Positions 10,570 to 63,579 of a DNA stretch of 64,000 nucleotides are shown piece after piece. Made by a program: the position numbers and the translations under genes. This stretch comes from Verrucomicrobiota bacterium (lineage in GTDB: Bacteria; Verrucomicrobiota; Verrucomicrobiia; Opitutales; Opitutaceae). The notes under the pieces are model-generated. The model saw only the letters and a list, made by a program, of their open reading frames with translations, did no database searches and had not been told where the DNA came from. The stretch's first letter is position 1. Each line of letters begins with the position of its first letter. The stretch lies in assembly GCA_016235555.1 (NCBI GenBank), contig JACRKC010000080.1, positions 1 through 64,000 on the forward strand, read 5' to 3'.

Positions 10570-13569
10570 TCAGAACAGCGGGGCGTTGTGCTTCGGGTCG
10601 GTGAGCAGGGCGATGAATCCGGGGTGATTCCGCAGCGGGAAAAACGCCGCGTGGTGCCGCATGACGAAGACGTTAACGATCCGGGCCTCGTCGTTCCAGT
10701 TGTGATAGTAGACGACACCGAGCAGCCGGGCGTAGTCCTGCACGGCGCCGGCAAGGTCGCCGGTCCAGCTCTTCGCGAGCGCGAGATTGATGCGATAAAC
10801 GGGCCCGTTCCAAGGATCGAGCGACTCGGGCGCCAGTTCGACTGCTTTGGCCGCGCAACGCAGTGCCTCGTCGCGGTGACCGAGGAGCGCTTCCGCCACG
10901 CCGAGCCGCGCCCACGGGCCGGGCTTGGCGGGATCGGCGGTGACGTAGCCGCGCTGTTGCTCGGCGATTGATTGCGCGAGTTCGCGGGCGGCGGGCCAGT
11001 CGCCGTTCGCGGCGAGCGCGCACGCCTCGAACAGCCGGTAACCGCGGGCCGCGCCCTCCAACGTTCCGCCGGTCATCAGTTCCAACTCGCGCAGGTAGCC
11101 CGGCGCGGTCTCGTGCAATAACGCCGGACGATCCAGCGTCCCATGGCGAAGCACGGCGAGCAGCCCCTGGCTGAACGGAACCTTCCGTCCCAGCGCCTCC
11201 GCGCGCCGCAGCGCGCTCTCCGCGTCGTCGTAACGCCGGCCCGAGAGCGCGAGGTGGTAGAGTTCCTCGGCGTATTCCGGATTGCCCGGGTCCATGCGTT
11301 CGACGGCGCGCAACGCCTGCCACGCTTCGGTCCAGCGGCCTTGCCGGCGGTGCAGCACCGCGAGGGCGTAGCGCGGGCCGGGGGAGTTCGGGGCCGCCGC
11401 GGTGGCGCGCTGAAACTCCTGCTCGGCCCGGGCATAGTCGTGCCGCCCGAAGTAGTGCACGTAACCCCGCATCAGCGGCAGCTCGGGGGCGTCGGGAATC
11501 AGCCGGCCCGCGCGGTCGATGGCGTCTTGCGCGCCCGCGAGGCGGCCCTCGGCCTGCTTCGCGCCGGAGAAGACGAGGAACGCGCGCACCCGGGCGAGCC
11601 TGGCCCACGCGAGCCCGAAGTCGGGATCGAGCGTGACGGCGCGCTCGAGCAACTGCTCCTGCTCGGCCAGCATGGCCGGGCCGGTGCCGCGGCGGTTTTC
11701 GAGGTCGCGGGCCTTGAGGTAGGCGTCGTAGGCATCCGGTTGGCGCGTGGGCAGGCGTTGCAGCACCTGTCTTTCCGCGGGGGCAATCGCAGCGGAGAGC
11801 TTCCCGGCGATCTCGGTCGCGATGGTCGTCTGGATTGCGAACACGTCCTTCATGTCGCGCTCCAATCTCCAGGCCGAGACCTGCTCCCCGCCCGGGGGGC
11901 GGATGAGCTTGCCCGTCACAAGCACGGTCGCGCCGGCGCGGCGCACGCTGCCTTCGAGCAGAAAGGCCACATTGAGTTCCCGGGCGATCTCATGGAGGGG
12001 TTGCTTGCTGTCGCGGTAGCGTTCGACGGAAGTCCGCGAGATCACGCGCAGCTGCCGGATCACGCCGAGGCTGGTCAGGACATCCTCGTGGACACCGTCG
12101 GCGAAGAAACGGGTGTCGGCGTCGCCGTTGAGATTGGCGAACGGCAGGACTGCGATCGAGCGCGGGTCGGGGGCGGCGGGAGTGGCGTCGCCGACGGGAG
12201 CGGCGCGGCGTCCCAGGTGCCAGGCGCCCACGGTGCCGATGAGGACGAGCAGCGCGGCGAACGCGGCGGTGATGAGGCCGGTGCGGTGGCGGCGGCAGAA
12301 CTTGGCGACACGGTAGCCGATGCTGGGTGGCCGGGCGACGATGGGCTCGTGCGCGAGGTGGCGGCGGAGATCGGCGGCGAGGGCGTTGGCGGTTTCGTAG
12401 CGACGGGCGCGGTCTTTTTCGAGGCAGCGCATGACGATCCAGTCGAGGTCGCCGCGCAGTTCGTCGGCGGCAGGTAACTGTGGGAGGGGCTTTGTGCCCC
12501 GAGTGATTGACGCTTCCACCGCGTCGGGGCGTAAAGCCCCTCCCACAGCTCGGGTGCGAGCGAGCGTGGCGACGCGCGTCGACGGTCGCGGTGGCTCGAT
12601 CTCGCGGATGATGCGGCGGATCTCGTCGACGCCGCCGGCGAGCAGCGTCTTCGGATCGAAGGGCGGGGCGCCGGTGAGCAACTCGTAGAGGAGGACGCCG
12701 AGCGAGTAGATGTCGGAGCGCGTGTCGATATCGACGCTGCTCAGATCGGCCTGCTCGGGGCTCATGTAGGTCGGCGTGCCGATGAACTGCTGGAAGGCGG
12801 TGAAGAGTGTCTTGTCCGTGAGCGGGCCCTGGGTGGCCTTGGCGATGCCGAAGTCGATCACCTTGGGGGTGGCGACGCCGTCGTTGACGGTGACGAGGAT
12901 GTTCGACGGCTTGAGGTCGCGGTGGACGATGCCCTTCTGGTGCGCGTGCTGCACGGCCGAGCAGACGGCGATGAACAACTCAAGACGCTGGGTGGGGGTG
13001 AGCTTCGCCTCGTCGCAGTAGCGCGTGATCGGCAGACCGCGCACCAGCTCCATCACGAAAAACGGCCGGCCGGCCAGATGTGGCACGGGTCTCCCGGCCC
13101 GTGGTTCGGAATCATGGGTCGGGAGACCCATGCCACCGGTGGCGCCACCGTCGAACACTTTCGCGATGTTGGGATGATCCATCAGCGCGAGGGCCTGGCG
13201 CTCGGCCTCGAAACGCGCGATCACTTCGCGCGTGTCCATGCCGAGCTTGATCACTTTCAGCGCGACGCGGCGGCGGACGGGCTCGCTTTGCTCGGCCATC
13301 CACACGACGCCGCAGCCGCCCTCGCCGATTTTCTCGAGGAGCTTGTAGCGGCCGATCACGTCGCTGGGCTTTTCTTCGGGCGGGCTGGCGGGGAGGGCGC
13401 GGGTGGCGAGCGGCTCGCGGAGAAAACTGTTCGCTTCGTCGTGGGCGTGCAGGAGCGCCTCGATCCGGGCGCGGAGCGCGGCATCGTCGCCGCAAGCCGT
13501 CCGCAAAAACGCCTCGCGCTCCGCCACCGGACGCGCCAGTGCCTGCTCGAACACGGTGTCTTCGCTCAT
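10570..13569 (-). CDS. Membrane Ser/Thr protein kinase with TolB-like and TPR domains
   Basis: This 999-residue kinase has a 70-residue N-terminal helix region, a PknB-type kinase domain (about 74-400), one membrane segment (about 425-445), a TolB-like domain found with such kinases (RSIAVLPFANLNGDADTRFF, about 460-590) and TPRs to the end. Catalytic features are present: IGEGGCGVVW, Lys105 in VALKVIKLG, HRDLKPSN, DFGIAK and GTPTYMSPEQA. Start: the ATG at 13569 aligns with the paralog's N-terminus, although a GTG at 13578 overlaps the upstream TGA and could also serve. Two REP pairs are inserted in frame, at 13080-13136 (residues about 144-163, beta4-beta5 loop) and 12479-12548 (about 341-364, loop after helix G). 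The kinase core is otherwise intact, so it is probably active. Confidence 0.9.
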   Translation of the reverse strand: MSEDTVFEQALARPVAEREAFLRTACGDDAALRARIEALLHAHDEANSFLREPLATRALPASPPEEKPSDVIGRYKLLEKIGEGGCGVVWMAEQSEPVRRRVALKVIKLGMDTREVIARFEAERQALALMDHPNIAKVFDGGATGGMGLPTHDSEPRAGRPVPHLAGRPFFVMELVRGLPITRYCDEAKLTPTQRLELFIAVCSAVQHAHQKGIVHRDLKPSNILVTVNDGVATPKVIDFGIAKATQGPLTDKTLFTAFQQFIGTPTYMSPEQADLSSVDIDTRSDIYSLGVLLYELLTGAPPFDPKTLLAGGVDEIRRIIREIEPPRPSTRVATLARTRAVGGALRPDAVEASITRGTKPLPQLPAADELRGDLDWIVMRCLEKDRARRYETANALAADLRRHLAHEPIVARPPSIGYRVAKFCRRHRTGLITAAFAALLVLIGTVGAWHLGRRAAPVGDATPAAPDPRSIAVLPFANLNGDADTRFFADGVHEDVLTSLGVIRQLRVISRTSVERYRDSKQPLHEIARELNVAFLLEGSVRRAGATVLVTGKLIRPPGGEQVSAWRLERDMKDVFAIQTTIATEIAGKLSAAIAPAERQVLQRLPTRQPDAYDAYLKARDLENRRGTGPAMLAEQEQLLERAVTLDPDFGLAWARLARVRAFLVFSGAKQAEGRLAGAQDAIDRAGRLIPDAPELPLMRGYVHYFGRHDYARAEQEFQRATAAAPNSPGPRYALAVLHRRQGRWTEAWQALRAVERMDPGNPEYAEELYHLALSGRRYDDAESALRRAEALGRKVPFSQGLLAVLRHGTLDRPALLHETAPGYLRELELMTGGTLEGAARGYRLFEACALAANGDWPAARELAQSIAEQQRGYVTADPAKPGPWARLGVAEALLGHRDEALRCAAKAVELAPESLDPWNGPVYRINLALAKSWTGDLAGAVQDYARLLGVVYYHNWNDEARIVNVFVMRHHAAFFPLRNHPGFIALLTDPKHNAPLF
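12479..12548. repeat. REP pair inside the TPR-kinase coding sequence
   Basis: Two 25-bp arms (12479-12503 and 12524-12548) are inverted copies with two differences. Both begin CTGTGGGAGGGGCTTT and form a GGGGC/GCCCC hairpin, and both differences fall in its loop. A lone arm of the same family is at 63556-63579. The element is read through as about 23 residues (TRAVGGALRPDAVEASITRG plus KPLPQL nearby) in the kinase C-lobe linker before RGDLDWIVM. Confidence 0.75.
13080..13136. repeat. REP pair inside the kinase catalytic domain, 57 bp
   Basis: Arms 13080-13103 and 13113-13136 are inverted copies of GTGGCACGGGTCTCCC-type sequence, each with the GTGG foot followed by a hairpin. The right arm has T-A where the left has C-G in the stem. 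The element is exactly 57 bp, or 19 codons. The paralogous kinase at 13575-17033 has GGATESGRPYFV where this one has GGAT, 21 residues, then GRPFFV: 19 residues more. The same family occurs intergenically at 62690-62745. Confidence 0.8.
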
Positions 13570-13574
13570 CGGGT

Positions 13575-16500
13575 TCACTGCGCTCGTCCCTTTTTCTCCG
13601 CCGCCTCAATCTCCGCCCACGAGGGTGCGCGCCAGAGGTGCAGCGTGCCCGGCGAGCTCACGCCGCCGAGGCTGTTGCCGTCCGGTGAAAAGGCCGCCTG
13701 ATACAGGAATTCGGTCACTGGCAGCGCCAGCAAAGGCTCCCAGTTTCCCACGTCCCAAAGCCGCATCCCTTCCCGGCCCTGACCGGCGGTCGCCAGCCGC
13801 CGATTATCGCGGGAGAAAGCGACCGCGCCGACGTTGCTCGCGTAGCCGTCCAACTTAGCCAGCAGCTGGTGGCTGCGCGCGTCGCGAATCTGCGCGTAGT
13901 TGTTCATGCTGGCCATCGCGAGAAGACTTCCATCGGAAGAGTGCTCCAGGTCGCTCAGTCGTTGCACGTCGACCTGCGTTTCCGTCAGCCGGCCGGAATC
14001 CAGCTCGAGGCGCGCCAAACTGCCACTGGGATTGCTAAGCAGAAATTCTTTTTCGTTGGTGGAAAGTGCCACCGAGCCGGCGCCGGCGATTTCCAACCAC
14101 CCCACATTTTCCAGCGGCCACGAACGTCCCGCTGCATTGCGCTCCAAGTCCCATTCCTGAATCGACGCGCGGCGATCGGATATCTGCACTATCAGCAACA
14201 GCCGCGTGCCGTGGTCGAGAAACACCTTGGGAATGGCCACCGGCGCGCCGGTCGCCAGTGTCCGCCACAACGCCCGCCGCTCCCAGTCCCAGACCTCCAC
14301 CTGACCATTCGGCGTCGTCACGGCGATGCGTGGAGCATCCAGCGCCATCACCGCTGGGAGGGCGTTGTTGCCGAGTCGTCGCGGTCCGTTCTCCCGCTGC
14401 CACGTGGCGCCAAGGGACAGCAGCACTTCCGTCGTGCCGAAATCGCGCCCACGGCGCCGGGTGATTTCACCGGTGTCACTGATTGCGATCACGGACTGAC
14501 CCTCCTCGGCGAACCGCCATTTTTGGATTTGTTCGGGCAGCGTAGTCCGCGCGGTGGCGGCGCGAGTGCCAGTGAGGTCCCACGCGAATACGGTGCCGTC
14601 CCGGGCACCGCTAAAGAGCGTCAGGCCCCCGGGCGCGAGCGCCACCGAATAGATAGGTCGCTCGTGGCCACGCAGGGTGCGGGCTATCTGCCTCGTGCGC
14701 ATGTCCCACAGCCGGATGGTTTGGTCCGTGCTTCCGCTCACGAGCAGGTTTCCGTCTGGCGAAAACCGGAGGGCAAAGATGCCTGCATGGTGGCCGCGCA
14801 ACTCACCGATTCGCTCGCCGGTCGCACCGTCCCAGAGCCAGAGGTCGGCTTTTGAGTCACCCCCGACGGTCACGACAACGCCGCCATCGGGCGAAATCGC
14901 GCACGGGGCGACCCCCACCACGCCAATCGACTCGGCCCAACGGGTTGTGCCCCGTTCGAGGTCAACAAACGAAAGACGTGACTGGAGGCCGTCCTGCTGA
15001 AGAACGGCGGCGTGGCTAAGATCAGGCGTGACCGCGACCGCCCGCTGGTTGTTCAAATCACTCGTGGGTGTAGGGCCTTCGAGCTGCTGGCCATCCGCGA
15101 CGCGCCAGCGGATCCACTGCGCCGTGGCCTGTTCGCCGGTGACGATCAGCAACGTGGCCCCATCGCCGGAAAAGAAACACTCGCGAAAGATTCCAGGCAG
15201 GCGCCATTCACCGATCTGCTGACGAGTCGCGACGTTCCAGAGAATTAACCGGCCCTGTCTCACGGGCACAATGGCCAATACTGGCGCGCGCGGGGAAAAG
15301 ACCGCTCGCCGGAGCTTTCCCTCCACCGGCGCGGGAATCTCCGTCCTCGTGCGGAGATTCCAAAGCGAAAAATTGGACCCATCGAAGCCCAGCACGTTGC
15401 CACTTCCATCGCCCACCGCCATCGATAGCCAGTCGCCATCGCCCGAGATCGAGAGTGAACCGACCACGTCTGGTTTCTGGCATAGCACGAACGCAGCATC
15501 GCTCTGGCACTGCTGCCACAGGTAACGCCATTCCCAACCGCGCAGGTCGGCCTCGCCGGATTTGGGCCGGTGGCGGTCGAGCAGCTCGCGGGCACGGCCG
15601 AGGTTGTCGATGGCCAAGGCCTGTTGGGCGAGATTCATGTCGGCGGCATAGCCGCGACGGAGTGCGGCGCGTTCGGCGGCTTCGGCGCGCTGGCGTTGCG
15701 CCGACTCGACGGTGCGCAGGCGCGATTGCTCGCGCTCCGCGCGCGTGGCGCGGACGGCCTGCCAGGCGCTCGCGGCGACGCCGAGGAGCAGCGTCGCGAC
15801 GATGGCGGCGGCGGACGCGAAAGCCACGCGGTGGCGGCGGACAAGTTTTTGCACCGTGTAGGCCGCGCTCGGCGGGCGGGCGAGGATGGGCTCGTGCGCG
15901 AGATGGCGCTGGATGTCGGCGGCGAAGGCGCTCGCGCTTTCGTAGCGGCGCGTGCGGTTTTTCTCGAGCGCCTTCATCACGATCCAGTCGAGATCGCCGG
16001 CGAGGTCGGAGTCGTGGCTGCGGCGTCCCGCCGCAGATTCCTTGGAGGCACTGAGGCGGGACGCCTCAGCCACGTTGAGTGTGCGCACCCGCGTGGATGG
16101 CCGCGGCGGCTCGACTTCGCGGATGATGCGGCGGATTTCGTCGAGGCCGGAGGAAGCGAGCGTTTTCGGATCGAAGAGCGGCTGGCCGGTGAGCAGCTCG
16201 TAAAGGAGGACGCCGAGCGAGTAGATGTCGCTGCGGGTATCGACATCGAGCGCGTTGAACTCGGCCTGCTCCGGACTCATGTAGGCCGGCGTGCCGATGA
16301 ACTGGGCGAAGGCGGTGTAAACGGTATTGTCGGTGAGCCGCCCCTGCGTGGCCTTCGCGATGCCGAAATCGATCACCTTGGGCACGGCCACATCGTCGTG
16401 GAGCGTGACGAGGATGTTGGAGGGCTTGATGTCACGGTGGATGATGCCCTTTTGGTGCGCGTGCTGGATCGCGTGGCAGACATCGATGAAAAGATCGAGG

Positions 16501-17033
16501 CGCGCGGCGGTGGAGAGGTTGTGCTCGTCGCAGTAGCGCGTGATGGGGATGCCGCGGACCAGCTCCATCACGAAATACGGCCGTCCGCTCTCGGTCGCGC
16601 CGCCGTCGTGCACCTTCGCGATGTTCGGGTGGTCCATCAGCGCGAGGGCCTGGCGCTCGGCTTCGAAGCGGGCGATGACCTCCTTCGTGTCCATGCCGAG
16701 CTTGATCACCTTGAGCGCGACGCGGCGCTTCACCGGCTCGCTTTGCTCGGCGAGCCACACGACGCCGCAGCCACCCTCGCCGATTTTTTCGCGCAGCGTG
16801 TAGCGATCGATCACGTCGCGGGGCTTTTCCTCGATGAACGCAGCGACCGCGGCTGCACCGCGCGTGGCGAGGGGTTGTTTGAGGAAGCTGTTGGCCTCGT
16901 CGTGGGCGCAGAGCAACGCCTCGACGCGAGCGCGGAGTGCGGCATCGCTAGAACAGGCGTGATCGAGGTGGGCGGACCGTGCTTGCGGCGCGAGCGCAAG
17001 CGCGGCCTCGAAGATCTCCTCTTCACGCGTCAT
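13575..17033 (-). CDS. Membrane Ser/Thr protein kinase with WD40 beta-propeller
   Basis: This 1152-residue kinase is organised as helical N-terminus (1-75), PknB-type kinase (about 78-390), single membrane helix (VAFASAAAIVATLLLGVAA, near 450) and extracytoplasmic WD40 repeats (about 560-1150; for example LRFSPDGNLLVSGSTDQTIR and GHERPIYSVAL). Catalytic residues are complete: IGEGGCGVVW, Lys108 in VALKVIKLG, HRDIKPSN, DFGIAK and GTPAYMSPEQA. The ATG at 17033 (MTREEEIFEAAL) matches the paralog's N-terminus; the frame upstream of it is open but uncoded-looking. A REP pair (16011-16076) is read in frame in the C-lobe linker. The stop overlaps the next kinase's possible GTG start, so the two kinases are probably translated together from the ECF-sigma operon. 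Confidence 0.92.
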   Translation of the reverse strand: MTREEEIFEAALALAPQARSAHLDHACSSDAALRARVEALLCAHDEANSFLKQPLATRGAAAVAAFIEEKPRDVIDRYTLREKIGEGGCGVVWLAEQSEPVKRRVALKVIKLGMDTKEVIARFEAERQALALMDHPNIAKVHDGGATESGRPYFVMELVRGIPITRYCDEHNLSTAARLDLFIDVCHAIQHAHQKGIIHRDIKPSNILVTLHDDVAVPKVIDFGIAKATQGRLTDNTVYTAFAQFIGTPAYMSPEQAEFNALDVDTRSDIYSLGVLLYELLTGQPLFDPKTLASSGLDEIRRIIREVEPPRPSTRVRTLNVAEASRLSASKESAAGRRSHDSDLAGDLDWIVMKALEKNRTRRYESASAFAADIQRHLAHEPILARPPSAAYTVQKLVRRHRVAFASAAAIVATLLLGVAASAWQAVRATRAEREQSRLRTVESAQRQRAEAAERAALRRGYAADMNLAQQALAIDNLGRARELLDRHRPKSGEADLRGWEWRYLWQQCQSDAAFVLCQKPDVVGSLSISGDGDWLSMAVGDGSGNVLGFDGSNFSLWNLRTRTEIPAPVEGKLRRAVFSPRAPVLAIVPVRQGRLILWNVATRQQIGEWRLPGIFRECFFSGDGATLLIVTGEQATAQWIRWRVADGQQLEGPTPTSDLNNQRAVAVTPDLSHAAVLQQDGLQSRLSFVDLERGTTRWAESIGVVGVAPCAISPDGGVVVTVGGDSKADLWLWDGATGERIGELRGHHAGIFALRFSPDGNLLVSGSTDQTIRLWDMRTRQIARTLRGHERPIYSVALAPGGLTLFSGARDGTVFAWDLTGTRAATARTTLPEQIQKWRFAEEGQSVIAISDTGEITRRRGRDFGTTEVLLSLGATWQRENGPRRLGNNALPAVMALDAPRIAVTTPNGQVEVWDWERRALWRTLATGAPVAIPKVFLDHGTRLLLIVQISDRRASIQEWDLERNAAGRSWPLENVGWLEIAGAGSVALSTNEKEFLLSNPSGSLARLELDSGRLTETQVDVQRLSDLEHSSDGSLLAMASMNNYAQIRDARSHQLLAKLDGYASNVGAVAFSRDNRRLATAGQGREGMRLWDVGNWEPLLALPVTEFLYQAAFSPDGNSLGGVSSPGTLHLWRAPSWAEIEAAEKKGRAQ
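16011..16076. repeat. REP pair inside the WD40-kinase coding sequence
   Basis: Arms 16011-16036 and 16051-16076 are inverted copies of the GTCGTGGCTGAGGCG family, with foot GTGG and hairpin CTGxGGCG/CGCCxCAG. Where the left arm has a C-G pair the right has A-T, so the stem is kept. On the kinase strand it is read as VAEASRLSASKESAAGRRSH, a frame that avoids the TGA inside GTGGCTGAGG. Confidence 0.75.
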
Positions 17034-17101
17034 GGGGGTAGTGGGGCTGGAACTGGCGGGAGTCTGCGGGGCGCGGCGGCGGGCCGCAAGCCGCGGTCGC
17101 G

Positions 17102-17500
17102 CTATTTCTTGGCGACGGCACCCTTGGCGGACTTTGCTTCCTGCTGGGCGACGAAGGCGCGGACGGTTTTGCCGTCGCAGAGCTTGATCGTCTTCACGCG
17201 GTTGTCGGCGAAGATGACGAGGGCGGCGTCGAACTGGTCGGCGCGCGGGGCGTCCTTGGCCTTGAAGTTCCAATACGCCCAGATGTTCGGCGCGAGCTGC
17301 GCGTGCGGGGCGCCGAGGATGGTGTGGACCTCCTGCGGGGTCATGCCGCGCGCGAGGCGGGCGGGGGCGAGCTGGCGGGCGAGAAATTCGAGGTCGGCGA
17401 GTTCGCGGTCGGTGAAGTCGGACGGGGAAGAAGCCGTGTCGGCGGCGAGGGCGAGCGAGGTGGTGGCGAGGGTGAGGGCGGTCAGGAGGATGTTTTTCAT
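17102..17500 (-). CDS. Small secreted SmpA/BamE-like protein
   Basis: This 132-residue exported protein has a signal peptide ending ALA before ADTASSPSD. Its core, ARGMTPQEVHTILGAPHAQL then NIWAYWNFKAKD, has the 'GMT..EV...LG.P' helix-turn followed by an aromatic strand, as in SmpA/OmlA (BamE) and related domains. The C-terminus is Lys/Ala-rich. There is no lipobox Cys, so it is unlikely to be a canonical BamE lipoprotein. It lies between the ECF sigma gene and the WD40 kinase on the same strand. It may be a periplasmic ligand of the kinase sensor domain; that is inference from position. Confidence 0.65.
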   Translation of the reverse strand: MKNILLTALTLATTSLALAADTASSPSDFTDRELADLEFLARQLAPARLARGMTPQEVHTILGAPHAQLAPNIWAYWNFKAKDAPRADQFDAALVIFADNRVKTIKLCDGKTVRAFVAQQEAKSAKGAVAKK

Positions 17501-17557
17501 GGGGTGGATTTGGTTTCATCCACCAGCGCGGAATTCGCCGGGCAAAGGGGACATGAA

Positions 17558-17578
17558 AACGCGAAAATTTTTCGCGTT
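17558..17578. promoter_or_regulatory. AT-centred perfect palindrome upstream of the BamE-like gene
   Basis: Two perfect 10-bp arms, AACGCGAAAA and TTTTCGCGTT, are separated by one T, 58 bp upstream of the BamE-like start codon. It stands out in GC-rich surroundings. It could be an operator for a dimeric regulator. On the minus strand it is followed by TTC, so a weak attenuator after the sigma gene is also possible. Confidence 0.4.
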
Positions 17579-17635
17579 GAGGCCGCGACACTTGGGGACG
17601 GGAAGGTCACGGGCTGGAAAGTCCGTGGCGCGGGA

Positions 17636-17662
17636 AGCGCGTTGAGGGCAACGCGCTCCACC
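17636..17662 (-). repeat. Single REP unit of the FecR-gene family
   Basis: Read on the minus strand it is GGTGG followed by the hairpin AGCGCGTT...AACGCGCT. It is one arm of the element found as a pair at 61913-61990. It lies about 20 bp past the stop codon of the ECF sigma gene. Confidence 0.6.
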
Positions 17663-17681
17663 TGCCGAAGGCGGGCAGGCG

Positions 17682-51824: not shown

Positions 51825-51847
51825 CTTCGGAGAATACTGGTTTGGGG

Positions 51848-51920
51848 TAGGGCGGGTCTGTGACCCGACTTTGGTGCGGGTATTCAACACGCAAAAGGGC
51901 GGGTCACAGACCCGCCCTAC
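51848..51920. repeat. REP pair (GTAG foot), perfect arms
   Basis: Perfect 21-bp arms (51848-51868 and 51900-51920) begin GTAGGGCGGGTCTGTGACCC. Each is a GTAG foot plus a CGGGTC/GACCCG hairpin. The pair sits between two PPT-like genes and ends one base before the stop codon of gene C (51922). Confidence 0.85.
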
Positions 51921-51921
51921 T

Positions 51922-53184
51922 TCATGCGAGAATTCCCTTGAGGACGTTCATCTGGGATTTGGCGCGGCTCTCGACGTAGGCCATGGCTTTTTTGACTTTG
52001 GCTTGCGCCGCGGGGTAGTCGCGGTGGATGCCCATCAGAGTCTCGAACATCTTCGACGCCGGCGTGCGGTCGAATTCGGGCGCCCACTCCTCCAGGCCGA
52101 TGTCCTTAAACATCCAGCATTTTGGCGAATGGAATTCGGAGAACGTGTGCATCATCGGCGTGCCCATCGCGAGAGCCATGATCGGCGTGTGCGGCTCGTG
52201 GCAGATCACGGTGTGGGCGCGGGCGTAGAAGGAGCAGGCTTCGTCGACGTTCCAGAATTCGTCGAAGTTGACGACGTGCTGCTTGAGGCGGTCGGGCAGC
52301 GGATCGTAGATGAACTGCTTGTTGTAGATCATCTCCTTGTTCACCTCGGGGGCGATGACGACTTTGCCGCCGGTCTCCTTCACCCACATCGCGATGAGGT
52401 CCTGATAAACTTTTGCGCGCCGGGTGTCGTCGGCGATGTTTTCGGGGGTGGGGTGGAGCGGATTGAGTTTTTGCGGCCGCGTATCATCCACGCCGGGGCT
52501 GCTGGGCGAATGGGTGCGGAGCTGCAGCGTGATGAATTTCTTTGGCTCCAGGCCGTGCTTCTTCAACCGGGCCAGTGCCTTTTCTTCGTCGCGGACGTCG
52601 ACGCCGAAGCAGCCGTCGGGGCAGAATTCGAGGACGGGCGGCTTCACGCCGGCATCGCGGAGCATCTTGAGCGACTTCGAGTCGCGGCAGTAGATGAAGG
52701 CGGCGCTGTTGAGCAGAGCGATGCGCTCGTCGCCGCCCTTGCCGGTGATCATGTCCGGAAAATAGGACTGGCCCTGCAGGCCCCAGGGTTTCCCGATCTT
52801 CCGGCAATAGATCATGAAATCGGTGCTCTGGCCCATGCCGGGTCCGCGCAGAAAAAAGTCGGAGCGCGCGATGGCGCGCTGGACGGCGCCGTCTTTCTCG
52901 GAGAGCGAGCCTCGCACGACCTCCACCTTCGGGAAGCGGCGCTTCAGCATCGCGTCCACTTGGGCGTTGGTGCTTTGCAGCCAGAGGATGACGTTGGCCG
53001 ACGGCAGATACTGTTCGAGGAAGCGCAGAGTGCCGGGCGTGTGGCCGATGTCGCCGATGTTTTTCACCGCCCAACCGCATTGCAGCAGGACGGTTTTTCG
53101 CGGTTTGGCGGATTGGCCGAGGGCGGGCAGGGCGCTGGCGCCGAGCACGAGGCCGGTGGTTTGGAGAAAAGTGCGGCGATTCAT
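51922..53184 (-). CDS. Tat-exported polysaccharide pyruvyl transferase-like protein C
   Basis: This 420-residue third tandem paralog has a leader (MNRRTFLQTTGLVLGASAL). It keeps the family start (CGWAVKNIGDIGHTPGTLRF), FFLRGPGMGQSTDFMIYCRK, FIYCRDSKSLKMLRDAGVKP, PVLEFCPDGCFGVDVRDEEK and ICHEPHTPIMALAMGTPMMH. It is more diverged than A and B; the SSWQ of those is CGWA here, and the GSG turn is GPG. A distinct substrate or acceptor is therefore likely. The 28 codons upstream of the ATG at 53184 come from a REP-bearing spacer and were excluded. It follows the second TonB receptor by about 100 bp, so it is probably in the same transcript. Confidence 0.85.
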   Translation of the reverse strand: MNRRTFLQTTGLVLGASALPALGQSAKPRKTVLLQCGWAVKNIGDIGHTPGTLRFLEQYLPSANVILWLQSTNAQVDAMLKRRFPKVEVVRGSLSEKDGAVQRAIARSDFFLRGPGMGQSTDFMIYCRKIGKPWGLQGQSYFPDMITGKGGDERIALLNSAAFIYCRDSKSLKMLRDAGVKPPVLEFCPDGCFGVDVRDEEKALARLKKHGLEPKKFITLQLRTHSPSSPGVDDTRPQKLNPLHPTPENIADDTRRAKVYQDLIAMWVKETGGKVVIAPEVNKEMIYNKQFIYDPLPDRLKQHVVNFDEFWNVDEACSFYARAHTVICHEPHTPIMALAMGTPMMHTFSEFHSPKCWMFKDIGLEEWAPEFDRTPASKMFETLMGIHRDYPAAQAKVKKAMAYVESRAKSQMNVLKGILA

Positions 53185-61572: not shown

Positions 61573-62646
61573 TCACCGCCTCCGGCGGACCACGATTTCG
61601 GTGGCGCTGCGGCGTTCGATTTCGATCCCGGGCGCGGCGGAGAGAAAATTGGCGAAGCCCTCGATGTTGTCGGAGCGGATGGAAGCGATGATGGGCAGCG
61701 CCGCGAGCGATTCGTCGGCGAGGAGGAACTGGACGCGGTTGCGGCGGTTGAACTCGGCGACGGCCGCGGAGAGGGGCGCGGACGAAAAATCGAGGAGCTG
61801 CGGCTGCCAGCTGAGCTGCTGCGCGATCGCCTGCGGACTGACGGGCACGATCTGCGGCGGCGCGGTGGTGGTGAGGGAGACGGTGGCGCGGTGGCCGGCG
61901 GCGACTTCGGAGGGTGGAGCGCGTTGACCCCAACGCGCTGGTTTGGGTTCGGTGTCGGGGGCTAGCGCGTTAGGGGCAACGCGCTCCACCTCGGAAACCG
62001 CGACGCGGCCCTCGGTGACGAGCACTTCGACGGCAGCGGCGTCGAGGCGCACGCTGAACGCGGTGCCGACCGCGCGCACGTCGACGCCGCGGGCATTCAC
62101 GATGAAGGGGCGCGATGGATTTTTCGCGACGGTGAAATAGGCCTCGCCGCTGACGAGGATGGCGCGGCGTTCGGTGGCGGTGAACGCGGTGGTGACGGCC
62201 GCGCCGTGGTTGAGCTCGACCGAGGAACCGTCTTCGAGAATGCGGCGCTTGAGGTCGACGCCGGCGACGGGTGCGGGGGTTGGGGCGGCGGGCGTCGCCC
62301 GCCACCACACGGCGGCGAGCGTGATGGCTGCGGCGGCGGCGAGCGTGGTCGGCACGAGCCAGTGGATTTTCCGCGGCGGCGGCGCGGACCGCGCCGGCGG
62401 ACGGGCCAGGAGGTCGGGATTCGGTTCCGCGCTGTGCTCGGGGCGCCACGTGGCGAGCGCGGTGAAATCGGCGACCGTGCCGCGGTGCAGCGCGAGCCAT
62501 TCGCCGTGGCGCGGATCGGCCGCGAGCCAGTCGAGAAACGCATCCTGCTCCGCCGGCGTGAGGCCGCGGTCGCGGCGCACGAGCCACTCGGCGGCGGCGG
62601 CGGCGCGGTGGCGGGCCTCCGGAGAATCGGGTTCGGGGCGCTTCAT
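61573..62646 (-). CDS. FecR-family anti-sigma factor
   Basis: This 357-residue membrane regulator has a cytoplasmic sigma-binding N-terminus with the DUF4880 pattern (AAAAAEWLVRRDRGLTPAEQ, FLDWLAADPRHGEWLALHRG). One membrane helix follows (VPTTLAAAAAITLAAVW, near 100), then the periplasmic FecR domain (LEDGSSVELNHGAAV, RRAILVSGEAYFTVAKNPSR, VRAVGTAFSVRLDAAAVEVL) and a C-terminal STN-like region (FSSAPLSAAVAEFNRRNRVQ, NIEGFANFLSAAPGIEIER). A 78-bp REP pair (61913-61990) adds 26 residues in frame inside the FecR domain (residues about 219-244). The ATG at 62646 was chosen because upstream codons fall in another REP pair. It should transmit the receptor signal to the sigma factor. Confidence 0.9.
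   Translation of the reverse strand: MKRPEPDSPEARHRAAAAAEWLVRRDRGLTPAEQDAFLDWLAADPRHGEWLALHRGTVADFTALATWRPEHSAEPNPDLLARPPARSAPPPRKIHWLVPTTLAAAAAITLAAVWWRATPAAPTPAPVAGVDLKRRILEDGSSVELNHGAAVTTAFTATERRAILVSGEAYFTVAKNPSRPFIVNARGVDVRAVGTAFSVRLDAAAVEVLVTEGRVAVSEVERVAPNALAPDTEPKPARWGQRAPPSEVAAGHRATVSLTTTAPPQIVPVSPQAIAQQLSWQPQLLDFSSAPLSAAVAEFNRRNRVQFLLADESLAALPIIASIRSDNIEGFANFLSAAPGIEIERRSATEIVVRRRR
61913..61990. repeat. REP pair inside the fecR-like coding sequence, 78 bp
   Basis: Arms 61913-61939 and 61964-61990 are 27-bp inverted copies: GGTGG, then the hairpin AGCGCGTT/AACGCGCT. The two differences lie in the hairpin loop. The element is 78 bp, 26 codons, and is read as VERVAPNALAPDTEPKPARW plus GQRAPP. 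A lone arm is at 17636-17662. Confidence 0.8.
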
Positions 62647-62689: not shown

Positions 62690-62745
62690 GTGGCACGGGT
62701 CTCCCGACCCGTGTTCGGCCCCACGGGTCAGGAGACCCGTGCCAC
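62690..62745. repeat. REP pair (GTGG foot) upstream of the fecR-like gene
   Basis: Arms 62690-62713 and 62722-62745 are 24-bp inverted copies with one loop difference, the same family as the element inside the TPR kinase (13080-13136). It lies between the sigma and anti-sigma genes, 44 bp before the anti-sigma ATG. Confidence 0.8.
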
Positions 62746-63555: not shown

Positions 63556-63579
63556 TCGGGGCGTAAAGCCCCTCCCACA
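63556..63579 (-). repeat. Single REP unit of the kinase-gene family
   Basis: On the minus strand TGTGGGAGGGGCTTTACGCC then CCGA matches one arm of the pair at 12479-12548. It lies just beyond the stop codon of the receptor fragment. A GC hairpin, GGGCGCC/GGGCGCCC (near 63522-63542), lies beside it. Confidence 0.6.

Follow-up and report, generated by a model that had tools for sequence, protein, structure and literature searches.

A repeated palindrome read in frame within a kinase gene of a Verrucomicrobiota bacterium

We analysed a 64,000-nucleotide stretch of DNA from a Verrucomicrobiota bacterium of the Opitutaceae (assembly GCA_016235555.1, contig JACRKC010000080.1, positions 1 to 64,000; the whole stretch is called the window below), in which a gene for a serine/threonine kinase with a TPR region contains a 57-bp palindrome. 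We consider it highly probable that this sequence is a pair of repetitive extragenic palindromic (REP) units, or REPIN, from a family of more than 100 copies, and that it was inserted in an ancestral kinase gene and now supplies about 20 residues of a loop. Direct evidence comes from the copy number of the element, the anatomy of the pair, the statistics of reading frames, uninterrupted homologs, an insertion common to two paralogs, and a transposase gene flanked by REPs. The features of the window that the argument needs are the following.

10570..13578, minus strand: open reading frame (ORF) of the TPR kinase, 1002 aa; Ser/Thr kinase with a C-terminal TPR region and two REP pairs in frame
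13080..13136, no strand: REP pair 1, 57 bp; family GTGGCACGGGTCTCCYGACCCGTG; minus-strand reading approximately GMGLPTHDSEPRAGRPVPH
13082..13103, plus strand: REP arm of pair 1, 0 mismatches
13113..13134, minus strand: REP arm of pair 1, 2 mismatches, which compensate each other in the REP hairpin (C-G pair changed to T-A)
Kinase insert, predicted translation: GMGLPTHDSEPR
13575..17591, minus strand: neighbouring paralog kinase with WD40-type repeats; uninterrupted loop GGATESGRPYFV
62690..62745, no strand: second copy of family 1 in the window, 56 bp; not within an ORF coding on both sides

The kinase ORF matches Pfam Pkinase at residues 78-401 (E 3.2e-40) and has TPR matches too. Inside it, REP pair 1 forms an inverted palindrome of the type GTGGCAC...GCCAC; its position and its length of 57 bp agree with an initial annotation of this DNA, which had been made without database searches. 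As single-stranded DNA the pair folds at -25 kcal/mol (z -7.18). That annotation had also counted 21 residues between GGAT and GRPFFV, and a 19-residue excess over the neighbouring kinase that equalled the palindrome exactly. Our count is 22 residues, compared to 2 in the neighbour, which gives an excess of 20 residues or 60 bp; 3 bp must therefore have arrived with the element or been there before it. The assignment of the insert to the beta4-beta5 loop agrees with an AlphaFold2 model of modest quality (mean pLDDT, the model's own confidence score, 68.3), in which the insert is predicted to lie between strands at domain residues 77-82 and 108-113, with pLDDT <50 at residues 87-104. The catalytic motifs are intact, as had been claimed: all the columns that we take to be the P-loop glycines, the lysine, HRD, DFG and SPE are kept in the window row of the alignment.

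The palindrome is highly repeated. At up to 3 mismatches, the pattern GGCACGGGTCTCCCGNCCCGTG has 4 matches in the window, compared to a mean of 0.03 and a maximum of 1 in shuffled sequence, and 117 forward and 120 reverse matches in the draft genome of 8,028,152 bases, where the reversed control has 0. A chance palindrome at 13080-13136 is ruled out by this copy number, the window shuffles and the fold z-scores. The copy at 62690-62745, previously called intergenic, is real, and lies outside any ORF that scores as coding on both sides. For a census of the family we used 115 stretches around listed arms. In them we counted 211 arm positions with no more than 3 mismatches and recognized 114 elements, each including one or more such arms. 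Genome-wide there are 237 strand-wise matches at that threshold, so the census is incomplete.

Family 1 has the anatomy of a REP system. Its 24-nt consensus unit consists of a 4-nt GTGG tag and an 8-bp stem with a 4-nt loop (fold z -3.86), and the census comprises 99 inverted pairs in plus-minus order, 13 single units and 2 elements of three units. Spacers are strongly variable in length and sequence, and arms are near the consensus. The GT of the tag precedes the GGCAC of the first arm in 105 of 114 elements. At stem positions 5 and 20, a compensated change from a C-G to a T-A pair occurs in 11 of 217 arms and other changes in 4. The criteria by which REPs and REPINs are recognized therefore describe it well: a hairpin unit in high copy number, a variant of the GTAG tag, inverted spaced doublets, and a repeat that flanks a REP-associated tyrosine transposase (RAYT) gene. 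It is also mostly extragenic, since 89 of 114 elements are not coding on both sides and 33 of 114 lie in ORFs even under a permissive test. Arms at up to 1 mismatch were found in 3 of 384 genomes of the class, and 18 of 61 genomes of the family Opitutaceae have arms when up to 3 mismatches are allowed, both counts including the genome studied here; the second count takes in several genomes with just one 3-mismatch match or with matches to a related family.

Coding potential was scored with a phase-specific model of four-base context, trained on the longest and best-scoring ORFs in the census stretches. In the permissive test, the 33 elements just mentioned lie inside ORFs scoring >0 on both sides. 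In a strict test, where the best coding frame was chosen independently for each flank, 24 of 114 elements are in frame, 1 is shifted and 89 are not coding on both sides. At score thresholds of 5, 10, 15 and 20 the ratio of in-frame to shifted elements is 28:1, 25:1, 24:1 and 21:1, and when 1 or 2 bases were deleted in silico, 24 of the 24 in-frame calls became shifts. Against an expectation of one third in frame, the binomial test gives a p of 6e-11; with the nine TIR paralogs counted once and the kinase pair counted once, 15 of 16 are in frame and p is 8e-7. Nearly all intragenic copies being in frame is the pattern expected after purifying selection against frame-breaking insertions. The frame used is also largely the same: by text pattern, 28 of the 33 intragenic elements have their right arm in the TGQETRAT frame, and the left arm reads mostly as VARVSRPV or GTGLPTRD.

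The genes hit by family 1 are diverse, and they include housekeeping ones. Pfam matches were found in 29 of 30 scanned ORFs out of the 33 (L086, L093 and L096 were left out), and the targets include iPGM, an E1 dehydrogenase, a GT2 glycosyltransferase, a DEAD helicase, GH67, nine TIR proteins and a topoisomerase that has topoisomerase III as its best match in the PDB. In iPGM, the loop motif has 72 residues, compared to 54-57 in the 19 relatives with the motif (29 fetched), where the insert is absent. In an AlphaFold2 model (mean pLDDT 74.4) this insert is predicted to fall between a helix at 106-116 and a strand at 138-143, with a short helix inside it, and its site coincides with a gap in the PDB alignment.

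Kinase relatives give the uninterrupted state. We compared 112 loci, including the 80 top-ranked of at least 562 relatives, and found 95 loop motifs (not deduplicated; the alignment rows of L034 and L200 read the same), 90 of which have a constant 28 residues. This bears out the suggestion that kinases lacking the insert should exist, as do three further uninterrupted paralogs in the same genome besides the window neighbour. Two observations had been named as fatal to an insertion, the same 19 residues in orthologs across distant genera with ordinary codon drift, and an arm unique in the genome; the material examined shows neither. Ordinary variation of the kinase loop is ruled out by the single length in 90 of 95 motifs.

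Among the 5 longer loops, only that of the C64 paralog from the same genome carries a family-1 element. Its motif of 57 residues has the same junctions, the same CATG-type arm and the same following HLA as the window kinase, and contains three REPs, the extra unit adding 27 nt (9 codons) in frame. Between the two kinases, synonymous divergence (dS) is 0.143 for the insert (2 of 15.3 sites), 0.82 and 0.92 for the adjacent 41-codon flanks, and 0.598 for all kinase flanks. This difference has a Fisher p of 0.0095 against the local flanks and 0.051 against all kinase flanks, and the low value for the insert suggests, from sequence comparison, constraint on it or its conversion. It could also be taken to mean that the insert is younger than the duplication, with both paralogs having gained the element independently at one site through a target preference of the transposase; the same loop has been hit by other repeats in other genomes. 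We regard two independent gains as improbable, however, since the copies share junctions, HLA and an arm whose pair type occurs in only 11 of 217 arms, and since the synonymous test draws on few sites (2 of 15, with p reaching 0.051 once all kinase flanks are used).

The four other kinases with long inserts at this loop come from other genomes. L225:2406-2579 contains a REP-like pair of the GTAG type, with 64 + 60 copies of the unit in that genome (control 0), and L228:5966-6208 another REP-like pair with 7 + 4 matches in its genome (control 0). The inserts at L219:2421-2597 and L245:2397-2522 resemble simple tandem repeats. These loops bear on whether inserts were retained for a useful peptide or hairpin, beyond mere tolerance. 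Such domestication would fit the low synonymous divergence of the kinase insert, the presence of inserts in housekeeping genes and many TIR-protein linkers, and arms that stay near consensus despite variable spacers. We nevertheless think it rather unlikely: other repeats, two of them apparently simple tandem, fill the same loop elsewhere, which makes its sequence seem of little importance; 90 of 95 homolog motifs do without an insert; and the AlphaFold2 model has no confident structure in the loop.

A second REP pair, which belongs to an unrelated family and was overlooked in the initial annotation, lies downstream of pair 1 in the same kinase gene.

12479..12547, no strand: REP pair 2, 69 bp; family TGTGGGAGGGGCTTTRTGCCCCGA; in frame in the TPR kinase, encoding approximately VGGALRPDAVEASITRGTKPLPQ
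63556..63579, minus strand: family-2 arm in the window, from the genome-wide arm search

Pair 2 folds with z -8.64, and arms of its family occur 77 + 85 times genome-wide (control 0). For the frame test we took 60 stretches plus the window, drawn from the first 100 places (lowest mismatches first) of the 162 arms, a non-random sample. Of its 67 elements, 10 are in frame, 0 shifted and 57 other; two of the 10 are single units, including the one in PheT. The nine ORFs outside the window all match Pfam (9/9), among them the Phe-tRNA synthetase beta chain (PheT) and a proton-antiporter (NuoM-like) subunit. For the two families together, 34 elements are in frame and 1 is shifted. The view that a mobile palindrome became protein sequence is supported by these results, and extends to more genes and to a second REP family.

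An assembly artefact or a pseudogene would be another way to obtain a palindrome inside an ORF, and the genome is a draft of 140 contigs with some elements at contig ends. This explanation is barely credible, given that the kinase copy is internal to a contig of 132816 bp, that the kinase is open across 1002 codons, that 34 elements are in frame against 1 shifted over the two families, and that 29 of 30 scanned family-1 ORFs have a Pfam match.

A candidate for the enzyme that moves family 1 is present. The genome has ten Y1_Tnp matches, and one of them, an ORF on contig C109 (L164:2106-2828; 240 aa when read from its first start codon), is flanked by family-1 REPs. The REP pair upstream of it, at 2031-2110, overlaps that start codon, which was called mechanically; downstream, past the stop at 2828, there is a three-unit REP array at 2832-2921. 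The ORF matches the REP-associated tyrosine transposase model NF047646 with E 1.4e-21 and 76.9 bits. The transposase gene on C138 likewise has REP family 2 on both sides. As a side observation, each of the REP-associated or related transposase genes at L164, L166, L167, L168, L171 and L173 adjoins palindromes of its own type.

The flanks of the elements were compared as well. Both outer 12-nt flanks are shared with another element (at least 9 of 12) in 37 of the 81 family-1 elements outside ORFs. For in-gene elements this applies to 3 of 24 under the strict test, all in neighbouring paralogs, to 2 of the 9 further permissive ones, and not to the window kinase copy. Sharing among copies outside ORFs falls into at least two flank types, which means that longer composite units exist.

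These data also bear on spread by template switching or gene conversion among repeats, in place of a REP-associated transposase. Arm conversion could produce nearly identical arms with differing spacers, the C64 copy has one additional direct unit, and the shared flanks of the 37 copies leave room for the copying of longer segments. The REP-associated transposase genes of this genome, however, adjoin palindromes of their own, and 21 of the 24 strict in-gene copies lack shared outer flanks and thus look like separate arrivals, so that we give conversion only a small chance of being the main route.

The preferred history, in which a REPIN was inserted once in an ancestral kinase gene, would run as follows. 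The mobile REPIN would consist of two 24-nt REP units in inverted orientation, separated by a variable spacer and each made up of a GTGG tag and an 8-bp hairpin, and it most likely moved as single-stranded hairpin DNA through a REP-associated tyrosine transposase, probably the product of the REP-flanked gene on C109. One copy would have landed in the part of the ancestral kinase gene that encodes the beta4-beta5 loop. With a stop-free frame and a net change that is a multiple of three, the gene survived insertion, and the palindrome would have become about 20 residues of flexible loop (a predicted translation), presumably neutral for the kinase. The gene would have been duplicated afterwards, and the C64 copy probably came by its one further in-frame REP unit in addition.

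Several observations weigh against this history or blur its details. The boundaries of the insert are inexact, as the 60-bp excess exceeds the 57-bp palindrome, and the shared outer flanks mean that the mobile unit may exceed the core. One family-1 element (C100:78004) is out of frame. The C109 transposase, at 76.9 bits, falls slightly below the NCBIfam cut-off of 80. None of the genomes searched (61 of the family, 384 of the class) is of the same genus, so a clean empty site from a sister strain is lacking. Among iPGM relatives compared there was no clean empty site either, and the loop has been remodelled as well; the gain of 15-18 residues there, compared to a core of 58 bp, implies that loop residues were lost or that the ancestral loop was shorter. 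Finally, 0 of 7 sampled family-1 copies in G026, G057 and G010 were coding on both sides, under a model trained on the genome studied here.

REPs inside genes have been described before. The sections of Di Nocera et al. (2013; PMC3733652) on intragenic REPs report them within ORFs of several species, and Opitutus terrae has the largest number of the GTAG type. Over half of the inserts are dimers or groups, with a coding capacity of 20-30 residues. In O. terrae the tag of most GTAG-20 repeats is mutated to GTGG, and a GTRG variant is described too. As described there, these O. terrae repeats resemble family 1 in their ORF-resident dimers, GTGG tag and repeat-specific transposase genes. The same source describes different REPs at about one recB site in two Xanthomonas species, a precedent for recurrent REP sites like the kinase loop. 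Unlike the present analysis, its sections on intragenic REPs contain no frame-ratio test and no duplication after insertion. Family 1 also resembles REPINs as characterized in part of Bertels and Rainey (2011; PMC3116915), which are inverted spaced doublets that form hairpins and are tied to RAYTs. In Pseudomonas fluorescens SBW25, that account gives only 14 of the top 16-mers (1,067 occurrences together) as overlapping genes, in contrast to the 24 (strict) to 33 (permissive) of 114 family-1 elements that lie in ORFs here. The genome is notable for this high and measurable intragenic share.

Rickettsia palindromic elements (Ogata et al., 2000, 2002), as summarized in passages of PMC10969869 and PMC3733652, are mobile palindromes found in frame in unrelated genes and thought compatible with protein function. 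The first ones reported were approximately 150 bp long; they have a CGTC tag, and CGTC repeats are without associated transposase genes. The initial annotation had likened the kinase insert to these elements, and the likeness holds for the way of working, an in-frame, protein-coding palindrome (24 family-1 elements in frame, 1 shifted), and not for membership. The latter is ruled out by ends that read GTGG and not CGTC and by the REP-flanked transposase gene on C109. The element works like the Rickettsia palindromes, yet it is a REP/REPIN.

Our searches of open-licence literature listed no paper whose title or displayed abstract deals with REPs inserted into the kinase loop or into TIR linkers. 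Intragenic REPs and varied REPs at about one recB site are known already; what is new here is the statistics of reading frames and the occurrence of unrelated repeats both within a single kinase loop and within TIR linkers. A REPIN persistence model assumes, in the relevant passage of PMC8049555, that a gene is destroyed when a REPIN is copied into it, an assumption to be set against the 34 elements that are in frame in two families under the strict test, some of them in housekeeping genes. The genome can serve as a natural experiment on the way in which short mobile DNA turns into protein, on the loops that tolerate it, and on the strength of the reading-frame filter.

TIR proteins may offer a second site of this kind. 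The genome has 50 TIR_2 matches, and in 30 TIR loci that we fetched (L294-L323) the linker has the family-1 peptide in 7 (one degenerate), a sister family peptide (VARAFQPV..TGWKARAT) in 2 and another palindrome-encoded peptide (RDASPRRPSS..GRLGETSLP) in 4. Five further TIR matches outside those 30 have an adjoining family-1 element according to the census. Across these paralogs, the post-TIR linker holds peptides of at least three repeat families. The sister REP family GTGGCACGGGCTTTCCAGCCCGTG, at L309 and L319, has the same outer bases and a different hairpin centre.

We advance a broader conjecture tentatively, as one that may well prove wrong: in Verrucomicrobia, a few tolerant loops and linkers, such as the kinase beta4-beta5 loop and the region after TIR domains, would be hit again and again by unrelated REP families, and REP-associated transposase systems would in this way steadily feed proteins new peptides whose DNA is still constrained as a hairpin, the same bases being both code and repeat.

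The window holds further palindromic repeats. An inverted REP pair with a GTAG tag (GTAGGGCGGGTCTGTGACCCG...) lies at 51832-51935, another palindromic repeat family, AGCGCGTTGAGGGCAACGCGCT, occurs at 17636-17673 and 61902-61939, and a further one, CGGAGCGGCGGTTTTCAACCGCCG, at 505-596.

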